From Bacteroidales bacterium (lineage in GTDB: Bacteria; Bacteroidota; Bacteroidia; Bacteroidales; UBA932), in contig JAEEQS010000003.1 of the NCBI GenBank assembly GCA_016285455.1, forward strand, positions 109,173-173,172: DNA of 64,000 nucleotides, in the 5' to 3' direction. This document shows positions 27,952 to 31,821 of this stretch, one piece after another (position 1 is the first letter of the stretch; each line of letters begins with the position of its first letter). The notes below the pieces were generated by a model, which worked only from the letters and a program-made list of their open reading frames with translations, searched no databases and was not told the DNA's origin. The translations under genes and the position numbers were made by a program.

Positions 27952-28524
27952 ATGAATATTGGAATTTTCAGTTCGGCCAATGGCAATGTAGATAAGTCTT
28001 ATTTTTCAGCCACAGAAGAACTTGGGATGTGGATAGGGAGTAAAGGACATTCCCTTGTCTGGGGTGGCTGCCGTCTTGGGCTGATGGAAACCATAGCGGA
28101 GAGTTTCAGAATCGGCACCAAAAATCTTCCGGAAGAAAAAAGAGGAAAACTTATCGGAGTTATTCCGGAAATCATTGAGGAAAAAGGCAAGTCTTTTTCT
28201 CCGGTAGACGAGGCCATTTACTGCAAAAACCTGTCGCAGAGAAAAGACATAATGATAAACCTCAGCGATGTAATAGTTGCACTTCCGGGAGGAATAGGAA
28301 CTCTTGACGAAATATTCACCGTTACTTCTGCAGCCACCATAGGCTACACAAACAAGAAGGTCATATTATACAATATCAGCGGATTTTGGAATCCGCTGAT
28401 AGATCTGATGAATCACCTTGAAGCCCAAGGTATGGTCAGGGGAGATTACCGCCAGAGAATTCTTGAGGCAAAATCCATTGAAGAACTTAGTTCAATGTTC
28501 CGGCTTCTGCCTTGTCAATCATAG
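27952..28524 (+). CDS. TIGR00730/LOG family Rossmann-fold protein
   Basis: GWGGCRLGLMETIAES-type motif and ALPGGIGTLDEIFTV (PGGxGTxxE). Confidence 0.93.
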   Translation: MNIGIFSSANGNVDKSYFSATEELGMWIGSKGHSLVWGGCRLGLMETIAESFRIGTKNLPEEKRGKLIGVIPEIIEEKGKSFSPVDEAIYCKNLSQRKDIMINLSDVIVALPGGIGTLDEIFTVTSAATIGYTNKKVILYNISGFWNPLIDLMNHLEAQGMVRGDYRQRILEAKSIEELSSMFRLLPCQS

Positions 28525-29173
28525 CCTTGTTAGCCGTTACATAAACCTCAACTCTTCTGTTCTGGGCCCTTCCGGCCTCGGTTGAGTTGTCTGCTACCGG
28601 CTCGTTGAAAGACTTGCCCTCGCTGGTCATTCTGGTGTCTGCAATTCCAAGGGTGTGCAGATAATTCCTTACGGCGCCGGCTCTTTCCAAAGACAGCTTT
28701 TCATTAACAGCCGCAGTTCCGGTGTTGTCTGTATGGCCGTAGATGGTGATGTCTGTGTCTGCCATATCTTTCATAGACGTTGCAAACTTTGCAAGGTCGT
28801 TCTTGGAAGCTGCAGAAAGATCGCTCTTTCCGGTCTTGAACAGAAGTCCGCTCTCAAAGGTTATCTTGATGGCCTCGAGTCCGTTAACGTCTGTTACGGT
28901 CTCTACCTTGGCGTTCTCAAGCTCCTTCTGAAGCTGCTCGGCCTTCTTGTCCATCTTGCGGCCGATAACTACTCCAGCTCCAGCTCCAACGGCACTGCCT
29001 ATAGCGGCTCCGATTGCGGCACCCTTGCCCTTGCCAATCAAAGCTCCGATACCTGCTCCTACGGCAGCTCCGGCTCCTCCGCCGATAAGTCCGCCTGAAG
29101 TTGTCTGGTTCATGTTACCGCACCCAGGAACAATGATGAGCGCAGCCATCAGACATAAGATCATTCTTTTCAT
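28487..29173 (-). CDS. OmpA family lipoprotein with glycine-zipper region
   Basis: Lipobox IIVPGC; Gly/Ala zipper; DITIYGHTDNTGTAAVNEKLSLERAGAVRNYL. Confidence 0.9.
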   Translation of the reverse strand: MKRMILCLMAALIIVPGCGNMNQTTSGGLIGGGAGAAVGAGIGALIGKGKGAAIGAAIGSAVGAGAGVVIGRKMDKKAEQLQKELENAKVETVTDVNGLEAIKITFESGLLFKTGKSDLSAASKNDLAKFATSMKDMADTDITIYGHTDNTGTAAVNEKLSLERAGAVRNYLHTLGIADTRMTSEGKSFNEPVADNSTEAGRAQNRRVEVYVTANKAMIDKAEAGTLN

Positions 29174-29233
29174 ATTATGTGGAATTTAAAATTGGTTGAC
29201 CGTTTAACTTTTGTGCAATTTAGCAAAAAATGA

Positions 29234-29815
29234 TCAAACTTTTGTAAAACGCCAAGGTTTAGTATCTGGCGTTCCATCCGCGTTATTTAGATTCTTGCGA
29301 GTATTAATGCTTGGCTCTTTAACCTGTTCCTCATCATCTACCCATTTGATTTGAAGCCCATTTCCAGAAAACGAATTATAGCCAAACAGATCTTCCCATA
29401 AAAATGAAGGATTTGACACTTTAACACGCTCTTTCTCGTCTACATATAAATACTCTCTAATTAAAAATGATGCACGATAGTTTTCTTCTTCATTTTCAAA
29501 TGTCACATCAACGCCAAATGTATGAGGATACAAAGAACCCTTCTTCGGAAAATATGGTGTTTTTTCTTTGTCTTTGTAATTTCTGTGAATCATTTTGATA
29601 TCTGTCATCCAACTTTTTTTGCGATCGCTCTCTAATTCTCCGTGAAGATAGAATTCAATTTCAAGAGGATAAATGCGAACCGTTCCGTTAACAAGGAAAT
29701 AACCACCATAAAGAACAGTCTTAGCTATTCTCTTAAACTCATCATTAATCATGGTTTCTTCTGTAGCCTTTCGGGCATTAAACTGAGTCAGTGCTTTTTC
29801 TAAAATAGTTGCCAT
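29234..29815 (-). CDS. uncharacterised protein with alkyladenine-DNA-glycosylase (AAG/MPG)-like motifs
   Basis: Ordered motifs: LEIEFY (cf. VETEAY), FPKKGSLYPHTFGVDV (cf. PGTLYVYxxYG), ASFLIREY (cf. AVLIRAL), C-terminal TKPWRF (cf. DYPWRF). Confidence 0.5.
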   Translation of the reverse strand: MATILEKALTQFNARKATEETMINDEFKRIAKTVLYGGYFLVNGTVRIYPLEIEFYLHGELESDRKKSWMTDIKMIHRNYKDKEKTPYFPKKGSLYPHTFGVDVTFENEEENYRASFLIREYLYVDEKERVKVSNPSFLWEDLFGYNSFSGNGLQIKWVDDEEQVKEPSINTRKNLNNADGTPDTKPWRFTKV

Positions 29816-29826
29816 ATAAAATTAAG

Positions 29827-30849
29827 TTAAAAAATGTTCCAGGAAATACAGTTCAAAGCCCCGCCTTCTTGGGCAAGCTGCTGGCAGCCTTGTATCTGAA
29901 TTACTTTATAATTCGGGTAGTATTGCCGTATTTGTTCTGCGGCCAGCAAGTCTTCCTTGGCGTGCAATCCTGGTATAAAGATACAATTATTGGTCTGAAG
30001 AAAATTTAGATAAGCCCACGATAATTTGTTGTATCGCGGAGAACGATATTCAAGTTCCTCTACAATAAAATGAGGCGAAAGGGCGCCTACCAGCCTTCGG
30101 CGTAGAGAAGGGTCAAAATCTGCATAGTTGTTAAGCAGGACTCTACTTTCTGAGATATAGCGTACCATACCGTCTGCATGACCGAATATTTCGTGTCGAT
30201 CCCAGGGAATGAGAATTATTTGGGCTTGCATTAGGTCTTCTAGTTTTGAGAGGAGTTCTATTTTTCCGTATTTAGGATTTTCTTTGAAAATTTTATCTGT
30301 CATTATGACTTTGTCTGCACACCTTACCACATTACCACCGTCAAGGACAATATCTGAAGAAATGCAATTTAAGTGAAGACAGTTTATGATAGTGTTATAA
30401 TCCGGAATATAGTCTTGGCTATCATACAGATAATCGGGCAGATACTTATAAGAAAAGAACAGGTTTTTGCTTAGTTGAATGGGCATAAAGTCTCGTACCC
30501 AGATATGCTTTGGTGATTGGGTGAGCGGAAGAAGGTCAACCTCAATTTGCTCTTTTTTTAATGCAGCAAGAAGATTATTGTAAGCTTCTTTATAGTGAAT
30601 AAGACCTTCTGCCAAGTACACTTTATTGGTTTGTGCTGGTTCATAGCCGTGTTCAATAGCCCTCATTAGCCATTGTTTGGTTTTTTCTTCATCAGGCTCT
30701 ACTCCAAAAATTTCTTTGTAAGCCCGTCTTGCACAGCAAAGGCCTTGTTCGGTTTTTCCTTTTGACAAACAGTCTAAGGCTTTTGCATAATTTGCATTCT
30801 TTTCAATTATTTCTCCGTAAGGATCAACGGGAATGTTTTTATTTTCCAT
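29827..30849 (-). CDS. agmatine deiminase/PAD-like protein with N-terminal Sel1-like region
   Basis: HIWVRDFMPI, VLDGGNVVRC, EIFGHADGMVRYI, EGGALNCIS; N-terminal TKQWLMRAIEHGYEPAQ; ATG at 30849. Confidence 0.85.
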   Translation of the reverse strand: MENKNIPVDPYGEIIEKNANYAKALDCLSKGKTEQGLCCARRAYKEIFGVEPDEEKTKQWLMRAIEHGYEPAQTNKVYLAEGLIHYKEAYNNLLAALKKEQIEVDLLPLTQSPKHIWVRDFMPIQLSKNLFFSYKYLPDYLYDSQDYIPDYNTIINCLHLNCISSDIVLDGGNVVRCADKVIMTDKIFKENPKYGKIELLSKLEDLMQAQIILIPWDRHEIFGHADGMVRYISESRVLLNNYADFDPSLRRRLVGALSPHFIVEELEYRSPRYNKLSWAYLNFLQTNNCIFIPGLHAKEDLLAAEQIRQYYPNYKVIQIQGCQQLAQEGGALNCISWNIF

Positions 30850-30982
30850 GATTTTAAGAGCGTTATTAAATGTTGTTTTCTGTAGCAAAAGTATAGAGAT
30901 GGTTATCGGAGACCTAAGAAAACTTGTTAAAAAGTGTTAATAATATACAAGAAGTTATTTATATGCTGATTAAAGGAAAGAT

Positions 30983-31013
30983 TTTGAAAAACAATAAAAT
31001 ACAATTATATTTG
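30983..31013 (+). promoter_or_regulatory. Bacteroidota-type promoter for the downstream nitrilase-family gene
   Basis: -33 TTTG (30983-30986), 19-bp spacer, -7 TATATTTG (31006-31013). Confidence 0.7.
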
Positions 31014-31020
31014 AAGTGTT

Positions 31021-31821
31021 ATGAAAGTAAGTCTTTTACAGCGCGATGTGATTTGGGCGGATCCTGAAGGAAACGCGGCGGCCAATTCGGCGATAATGGA
31101 ATCCTTGAGGGGAACGGACCTTTTCGTCCTCCCGGAAATGTTTTCAACAGGCTTTGCAACTTCTCCAGAAGGCATCGCCGAGGAACTTGACCCTAAGGGG
31201 GAATGCTTTACTCTGCGATGGATGAGAAAAGAGGCTTCCCGTCTGGATTGCGCCGTTTGCGGAAGCGTGGCCGTCAAGGAAACGGACGGGCGTTTTTTCA
31301 ACCGCCTGTATTTTGTAACGCCGGATATGTGCTTTTCATATGACAAGCATCATCTTTTCACTTACGGCGGAGAGGCTCGTTCATACAGTCCTGGGCAGGA
31401 GAGGGTTGTTGTAGTGTGGAGAGGGGTAAAGATTCTGCTTCAGGTTTGTTATGACGTCAGGTTCCCGGTGTTTGTCCGCAACAACATTTCTGAAGATGGA
31501 ACTCCGGAATACGATGCAATTATCTATGTTGCAAGCTGGCCGGCAAAGAGGGTTCCGGCCTGGAAGAAACTCCTTCCGGCAAGGGCTATAGAAAATCAGT
31601 GCTATGTACTGGCAGTCAATAGAGTAGGAAAAGATCCCGTCTGTGATTATATCGGAGGAACAATGGTATTGGACGCTATGGGAAATACTGTGGCTTCCTG
31701 TCCAGATGCAGAAGAAACCTCCATATCCGTTGATTTGGACATGGAGGCTCTTGCCCGTTTCAGGTCTAAGTTTCCTGTGCTTGAAGACGGGGACCCTTTC
31801 TGTATTCTGACTAGAAATTGA
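31021..31821 (+). CDS. nitrilase-family amidohydrolase (omega-amidase/YafV-like)
   Basis: FVLPEMFSTGF (Glu), YDKHHLFTYGGE (Lys), ILLQVCYDVRFPVF (Cys). Confidence 0.92.
   Translation: MKVSLLQRDVIWADPEGNAAANSAIMESLRGTDLFVLPEMFSTGFATSPEGIAEELDPKGECFTLRWMRKEASRLDCAVCGSVAVKETDGRFFNRLYFVTPDMCFSYDKHHLFTYGGEARSYSPGQERVVVVWRGVKILLQVCYDVRFPVFVRNNISEDGTPEYDAIIYVASWPAKRVPAWKKLLPARAIENQCYVLAVNRVGKDPVCDYIGGTMVLDAMGNTVASCPDAEETSISVDLDMEALARFRSKFPVLEDGDPFCILTRN

Follow-up and report, generated by a model that had tools for sequence, protein, structure and literature searches.

The gene at 29234-29815 of the window, which is the whole 64-kb stretch of DNA analysed, is one half of a conserved two-gene unit in which an AAG/MPG-superfamily-like protein is paired with a PAD_porph-family (agmatine/peptidyl-arginine deiminase-like) enzyme, and this pair is mobile. 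Both sets of catalytic residues are retained in the pair. The two genes form a small unit that jumps between bacteria of the rumen and the gut, the AAG-like gene nearly always accompanied by its partner. Tentatively, and with confidence somewhat short of even, we read the AAG-like proteins as a PAD-linked and uncatalogued AAG/MPG-superfamily clade that would act with the adjacent PAD-type guanidino-hydrolase from a mobile cassette with a role in conflict. The pair is possibly an undescribed two-enzyme system used against phages. The original prediction described the AAG-like protein and missed this main feature, that its gene is half of a conserved cassette shared with a PAD-type deiminase-like enzyme. 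The coordinates of the features are given in Table 1.

Table 1. Features of the cassette and its flanks, in positions of the window
Feature	Position	Strand	Basis or remark
Flanking host gene, OmpA family, outside the cassette	28487..29173	-	
Inserted cassette	29230..31018	.	Empty-site alignment, ~1.8 kb; GC 36.4% vs 47.3% for the window
AAG/MPG-superfamily-like protein, 193 aa, pI 6.0	29234..29815	-	ORF, relatives, profile link to AAG
W188-R-F190, aligned with the terminal AAG (P)WRF/YRF	29246..29254	-	hhalign alignment
L118-I119-R120, aligned with the AAG LIR strand	29456..29464	-	hhalign alignment
H98-x-x-G101-x-D103-x-T-F-E107 strand, aligned with AAG YVYxxYGxxxxxN	29495..29524	-	hhalign alignment
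E52-I-E54-F-Y56, aligned with AAG ETEAY (catalytic Glu, Tyr)	29648..29662	-	hhalign; E54 43/43, Y56 43/43
PAD_porph-family (agmatine/peptidyl-arginine deiminase-like) enzyme, 340 aa	29827..30849	-	PF04371 match, catalytic residues, adjacency
N-terminal Sel1-like extension of the PAD-like protein	30610..30849	-	Weak Sel1 match, E=0.053, to 30610-30888
TACTTTTG, possible promoter of the pair	30886..30893	-	Sequence alone
Flanking host gene, carbon-nitrogen hydrolase, outside the cassette	31021..31821	+	Present in 34/39 congeners

Forty-nine loci with flanking sequence were included in a census of the pair. A PAD gene was located on the same strand as the AAG-like gene and at most two genes away in 39 of the 49, and was immediately adjacent in thirty-three. 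The AAG-like gene came first in twenty-seven of these pairs and the PAD gene in twelve, with a median gap of 0 nt and sixteen pairs that overlap. In the window the PAD-like gene (ATG at 30849, the longest ORF beginning with a TTG at 30888) is directly upstream and its stop falls 11 bp before the AAG-like start. The ten loci outside the pair count included two that end at contig ends (L060 and L116), one with a truncated AAG-like gene (L101), one from an unverified record in which the frame is broken (L061), one that is divergent (L127) and five in which a PAD gene was absent near the AAG-like gene (L108, L112, L117, L129 and L130). Within the genus the two genes co-occurred (Fisher p=5.7e-5), and in the sole apparent exception, G017, the contig ends inside the PAD gene. 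The distances between AAG-like proteins and between PAD proteins were also correlated (r=0.44, null maximum 0.20). In a subgroup with EIEVYYY/EVEAYY motifs (L086, L088 and L089; loci L127, L129 and L130) a co-directional PAD partner is missing, and the AAG-like gene of L129 is overlapped instead by a gene of 258 aa whose start is signal-like.

The boundaries of the cassette were given by seven congeners (L165-L171) with an empty site, where the OmpA and carbon-nitrogen hydrolase genes adjoin about 75-105 bp apart; four of these seven have the pair elsewhere in the genome. The GC content of the cassette was under that of every other same-size segment sampled in the 64-kb stretch. In another species (G028/L017) the cassette block is 98-99% identical to that of the window while the flanks are only 70-85% identical. 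No integrase or terminal repeats were seen in the cassette. The carbon-nitrogen hydrolase gene was considered as a member of the unit and a possible agmatine-pathway partner and was rejected, because it is a fixed host gene that adjoins the empty sites. A sequence upstream of the pair, which we take to fit the Bacteroidota -7 box TAnnTTTG, is listed in Table 1 as a possible promoter; promoter and terminator scans of the region gave background levels and no RNA was found there with Rfam. The G028 copy of the AAG-like gene (L017:5995-6147 and L161) has been cut by an in-frame deletion to 51 aa, consisting of the first 17 and last ~34 residues, and the PAD gene of the same copy has a smaller in-frame deletion in its N-terminal region and an open frame. 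This deletion pattern has the look of selection against the glycosylase part.

The AAG-like gene belongs to a real gene family. Its open frame was confirmed as a 193-aa ORF on the minus strand, which the original prediction had not named, with an ATG at 29815 and a stop at 29234; the peptide quoted earlier was exact and the plus strand across 29234-29815 is full of stops. A relative was present in 8 of 39 congeneric genomes and, across the order, in 29 of 344 genomes; the sources of relatives were the same genus, order and class, rumen Bacteroidales MAGs and two viral contigs. The core alignment comprised 14 sequences, the residue counts cover 21 core members, and a second search round added a more divergent set (L071-L094), with 43 relatives collected in all. 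The AAG-like features are clearer in this added set and include TEIEFYY, WYFHxxGxDITFG, YGGILIRGI, GPxxxL and R-x-G-L...YRF. The window protein had no Pfam match, no NCBIfam or PHROG model covered it, and single-protein searches of Pfam, NCBIfam and the PDB returned only chance flagellin matches to residues 15-53. Viral scans using members of the extended family gave no matches. A single match on a Hymenobacter plasmid fell in a partial stretch that lacks annotation, and no PAD gene is listed among the annotated neighbours. A 4.4-kb contig binned as Lachnospiraceae (L012, JALFVM010000027.1) carries a cassette very close to those of Bacteroidales L011 and L016, and its label probably reflects mis-binning or a recent transfer.

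The partner is a recognisable member of the PF04371 agmatine deiminase/Porphyromonas-type PAD family, as the PAD-like protein of the window matched that profile with E=3.6e-20 (72.9 bits, cut-off 25) and has the catalytic D, D/E, H, D and C. These residues are D133, D183 (D for E), H237-x-D239 and C347 in 353-aa numbering, and they are kept in nearly all PADs of the module. Unlike other PF04371 enzymes the partner has RDYMP for the canonical RDxG and DGGN for EGG. The module PADs are without about the first 70 positions of the PAD_porph profile and are distinct from canonical PAD_porph copies located elsewhere in many of the same genomes. A separate Sel1-repeat gene joins the pair in nine other loci, in addition to the weak Sel1 match of the window's N-terminal extension. 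In one genus (L107, L109, L110 and L114) the PADs start with MRITFGLLIGIIVCFISTxAA, which is signal-peptide-like and therefore a poor fit to joint action on cytoplasmic DNA, and a 114-aa gene sits between the AAG-like and PAD genes there.

The alignment of the AAG-like family to AAG/MPG (PF02245) is collinear from the LLG helix to the terminal (P)WRF, with the catalytic Glu, the Tyr and the Arg of the LIR strand kept. Both the Glu and the Tyr of the ExExY segment were present in all 43 relatives, as had been proposed for the window protein. The conserved charged and aromatic set across the relatives was listed as E54, Y56, G101, D103, R120 and R173, with R120 found in 42 of 43. The original prediction had matched seven motifs in order, and six of the seven equivalences stood in the profile alignment; the AAH/His segment did not, as H77 is invariant in the core and not conserved across the extended family. 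Differences from AAG/MPG include a new invariant D103 (43/43), a nearly invariant H98 (39/43), the linkage to a PAD gene and the missing direct Pfam match of the window protein. In AAG the Asn after the YVYxxYG strand is a gate against normal guanine. Its loss, suspected earlier, was borne out, as the position is E107 in the window protein, Glu in 21 of 21 core members and G, S, K or other residues in the extended family. The position of the intercalating Tyr is F100 in the window protein, Ser in 20 of 21 core members and variable elsewhere. The proteins are also acidic where AAG is basic (median pI 6.0 for the core vs 9.3), which argues against ordinary duplex-DNA binding. From these residues we infer that the protein may be an enzyme with glycosidase-type chemistry whose target would be something other than a lesion in ordinary duplex DNA, because it is acidic and has lost the intercalating Tyr.

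Neighbouring genes of a defence type were found in several loci, while many loci, including that of the window, are among ordinary genes. On a phage-like contig (L059) the pair is inserted, strand-reversed, among genes resembling phage replication genes and is preceded and overlapped by a DUF6642 gene. This gene (L059:9402-9977), which has a weak CHAT-like match, also occurs in L104. In both loci, which look like copies of one mobile element, it shares a few bases with the AAG-like gene. A DNA methylase is located 22 bp upstream of the pair in L132, type I R-M genes are present in L060, and L061 encodes a DrmC-like PLD protein, an Mrr nuclease and a PD-(D/E)XK nuclease (PF20796/PF22558). The latter record (MT838246.1, 595-4678), an unverified 'Bacteriophage sp.' entry, is more like a bacterial defence island, and in one of its ORFs a SMEK_N-like part runs into the start of an AAG-like domain before the frame breaks. 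Inspection of the sequences pointed to a relaxase-like gene in L102 and a PIN-like gene in L124. A 440-aa gene of L102 (6326-7645) without a Pfam match, which stops 3 bp short of the AAG-like gene, has an LVILSLNPGY stretch that recalls uracil-DNA-glycosylase motifs. The PADLOC-DB 2.0 defence models gave no match for the AAG-like or the PAD-like protein. Taken together the neighbour genes are suggestive of conflict islands, and the cassette is probably a nucleic-acid or nucleotide conflict system, its defence role and substrate being read from distribution and neighbours.

Two other neighbours bear on a different reading, a metabolic or salvage pair that would break down a small nucleoside bearing a guanidino group, or an ADP-ribosyl-guanidine such as ADP-ribosyl-agmatine or ADP-ribosyl-arginine, and would not target nucleic acid. 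In L122 the pair is followed by an ADP-ribosylglycohydrolase gene, and in L118 its two members are separated by the gene of an HD_4 hydrolase. The two predicted reactions, N-glycosidic cleavage and guanidine hydrolysis, meet in ADP-ribosyl-guanidine, which has an N-glycosidic bond to guanidinium. The acidic pI and the lost intercalating Tyr are consistent with such a substrate as well. However, each of these two neighbours was found in a single locus, the sporadic cassette-like spread and the prophage and R-M neighbours are unusual for housekeeping salvage, and the flanking carbon-nitrogen hydrolase is a fixed host gene outside the cassette. We regard salvage as somewhat unlikely.

The tight coupling of the genes, their small size and the flips in gene order are also features of a toxin-antitoxin-like or sensor-effector pair, in which the AAG-like protein would be a pseudo-enzyme or regulator that binds and controls a PAD-like modifier of arginines in host or phage proteins. 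The Sel1-repeat partner suggests a protein-protein assembly in keeping with this, and in L017/G028 the AAG-like gene is down to 51 aa with the PAD gene still open. The AAG catalytic Glu, Tyr and Arg are nevertheless invariant or nearly so across a divergent family, as expected of an enzyme and not of a scaffold, and this arrangement appears unlikely.

Kinship of the family to AAG/MPG at the superfamily level is well supported by comparison of sequence profiles. When the 43 relatives were aligned to 29 AAGs with hhalign the score was 52.0 (Prob 94, P 1e-7, ~150 columns), as compared to 12.8 +/- 2.1 for column-shuffled AAG (maximum 21.7, n=60), 12.6 for reversed AAG and 15.0 for an unrelated family (PAD), and the alignment was full-length and collinear. 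The order of the motifs noted originally is thus beyond chance. The core family alone scored 30.3 against AAG, with shuffled controls at 13.4 +/- 2.2 (maximum 19.0). With just four AAG sequences the comparison was weak (Prob 2-3), and significance was reached only once the extended family and the 29 AAGs were included. One relative, L083, matched PF02245 over 6-177/181 with E=3.9e-5 and 23.5 bits, just under the curated cut-off of 27, while the window protein and all 14 core members gave no match to that model; a check against this Pfam family, suggested at the outset, therefore failed for the window protein itself and came close for its relative. In a search of 1884 ORFs with the extended-family HMM the AAGs were the best non-family matches (top E=1.5e-7). 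The profile comparison with its controls, the L083 match and the first place of the AAGs in the HMM search therefore support superfamily kinship, and since neither the window protein nor L083 reaches the PF02245 cut-off the window protein is called a superfamily relative and not a member of AAG/MPG.

Structure prediction did not extend this result. AlphaFold models of the window protein (P0001) and the L059 homologue had pLDDT values of 70 and 74, respectively, and pTM of 0.76-0.77, and no AAG was found among the top 50 Foldseek matches to the PDB for either of these moderately confident models; nothing was significant and the PDB returns were T-cell receptor chains with TM of about 0.1, which were regarded as meaningless. 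The proposal of a very divergent AAG-fold protein therefore held as to distant kinship by profiles and gained nothing from the structural comparison with the PDB. The order of elements in the model, a long helix, two ExEY strands, a loop, two strands, the LIR strand, a helix and strands, presumably fits AAG, and we infer an AAG fold for the window protein on the strength of its sequence relationships. The sole significant structural neighbours of the L059 model were uncharacterized proteins among the predicted viral proteins of BFVD, from Catovirus CTV1 (A0A1V0SB56, E=1.3e-6) and Hyperionvirus (A0A3G5A9Y1, E=6.2e-6). These matches suggest that the family extends to giant viruses and that the L059 model has meaning; by such modelled similarities the AAG-like family may include a branch in eukaryotes or giant viruses. 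A separate fold with no relation to AAG, its motifs alike by convergence, would agree with the Foldseek result for the two models and with the core family's missing Pfam match. Such a fold is quite improbable given a profile score more than 15 SD over the shuffled controls in a full-length collinear alignment, the Pfam match of an intermediate relative, the first place of the AAGs among non-family ORFs and the only moderate confidence of the models.

AAG is known as a repair enzyme family, and the 2.15-Mb genome of the window gave no canonical AAG (PF02245) match. That the protein is a plain DNA-repair methylpurine glycosylase standing in for the missing AAG, as the retained ExEY and LIR strands might allow, is highly improbable in view of its patchy occurrence (8/39 congeners), mobile cassette, near-constant PAD partner, acidic pI and lost Asn and intercalating-Tyr positions.

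The pair is conserved and translationally coupled, moves across the Bacteroidota and has no entry in the family libraries consulted, which predicts a distinct joint chemistry. In the reading we favour, a PAD-linked clade with a conflict role, the AAG-like protein would cleave an N-glycosidic bond, E54 being the base that activates the water. It would act on a free nucleotide or on single-stranded nucleic acid carrying a modified or flipped base, and not on a duplex-DNA lesion. The PAD-like Cys enzyme would take off or edit a guanidino or amidino group of that substrate, or generate a signal. The cassette sometimes includes a Sel1-repeat protein, separate or fused to the PAD. A more specific version is an undescribed class of mobile base-excision immunity by a repurposed AAG, in which the Cys guanidino-hydrolase would unmask a modified nucleobase or make a guanidino-derived signal, the AAG-superfamily glycosidase would cleave the base and the family would extend to giant viruses; this version is unlikely as it stands.

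R.PabI is a sequence-specific adenine glycosylase with AP-lyase activity, has a different fold from the present family and is not known to have a PAD partner. The R.PabI-type restriction glycosylases resemble the pair as mobile base-excising enzyme genes serving conflict and not repair (PMC4615327). The closest described system in logic is Brig3-BapA, a two-gene operon reported to defend against T-even phages that consists of a base-excising glycosylase and a hydrolase stripping a base modification (PMC13160076). The likeness is one of glycosylase-plus-hydrolase logic and not of demonstrated homology, as the partner in that system is a glucosyl hydrolase and not a guanidino-hydrolase; the core sheet of the Brig3-BapA glycosylase was described as AAG-like, and Brig1 and Brig3 were derived by the authors from uracil-DNA glycosylases (PMC13160076). 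Brig3 excises a base that BapA has unmasked, and by this analogy the present pair would be directed at phages or other mobile elements. In the literature searched, which takes in only a minority of subscription journals, no description of an AAG-like/PAD pair was found.

The family would represent a diverged and widely transferred branch of AAG in which some repair-type positions were lost, the catalytic ones were kept and the gene became tied to a deiminase-like enzyme. It supplies many bridging sequences on how base-excision enzymes may gain other uses.
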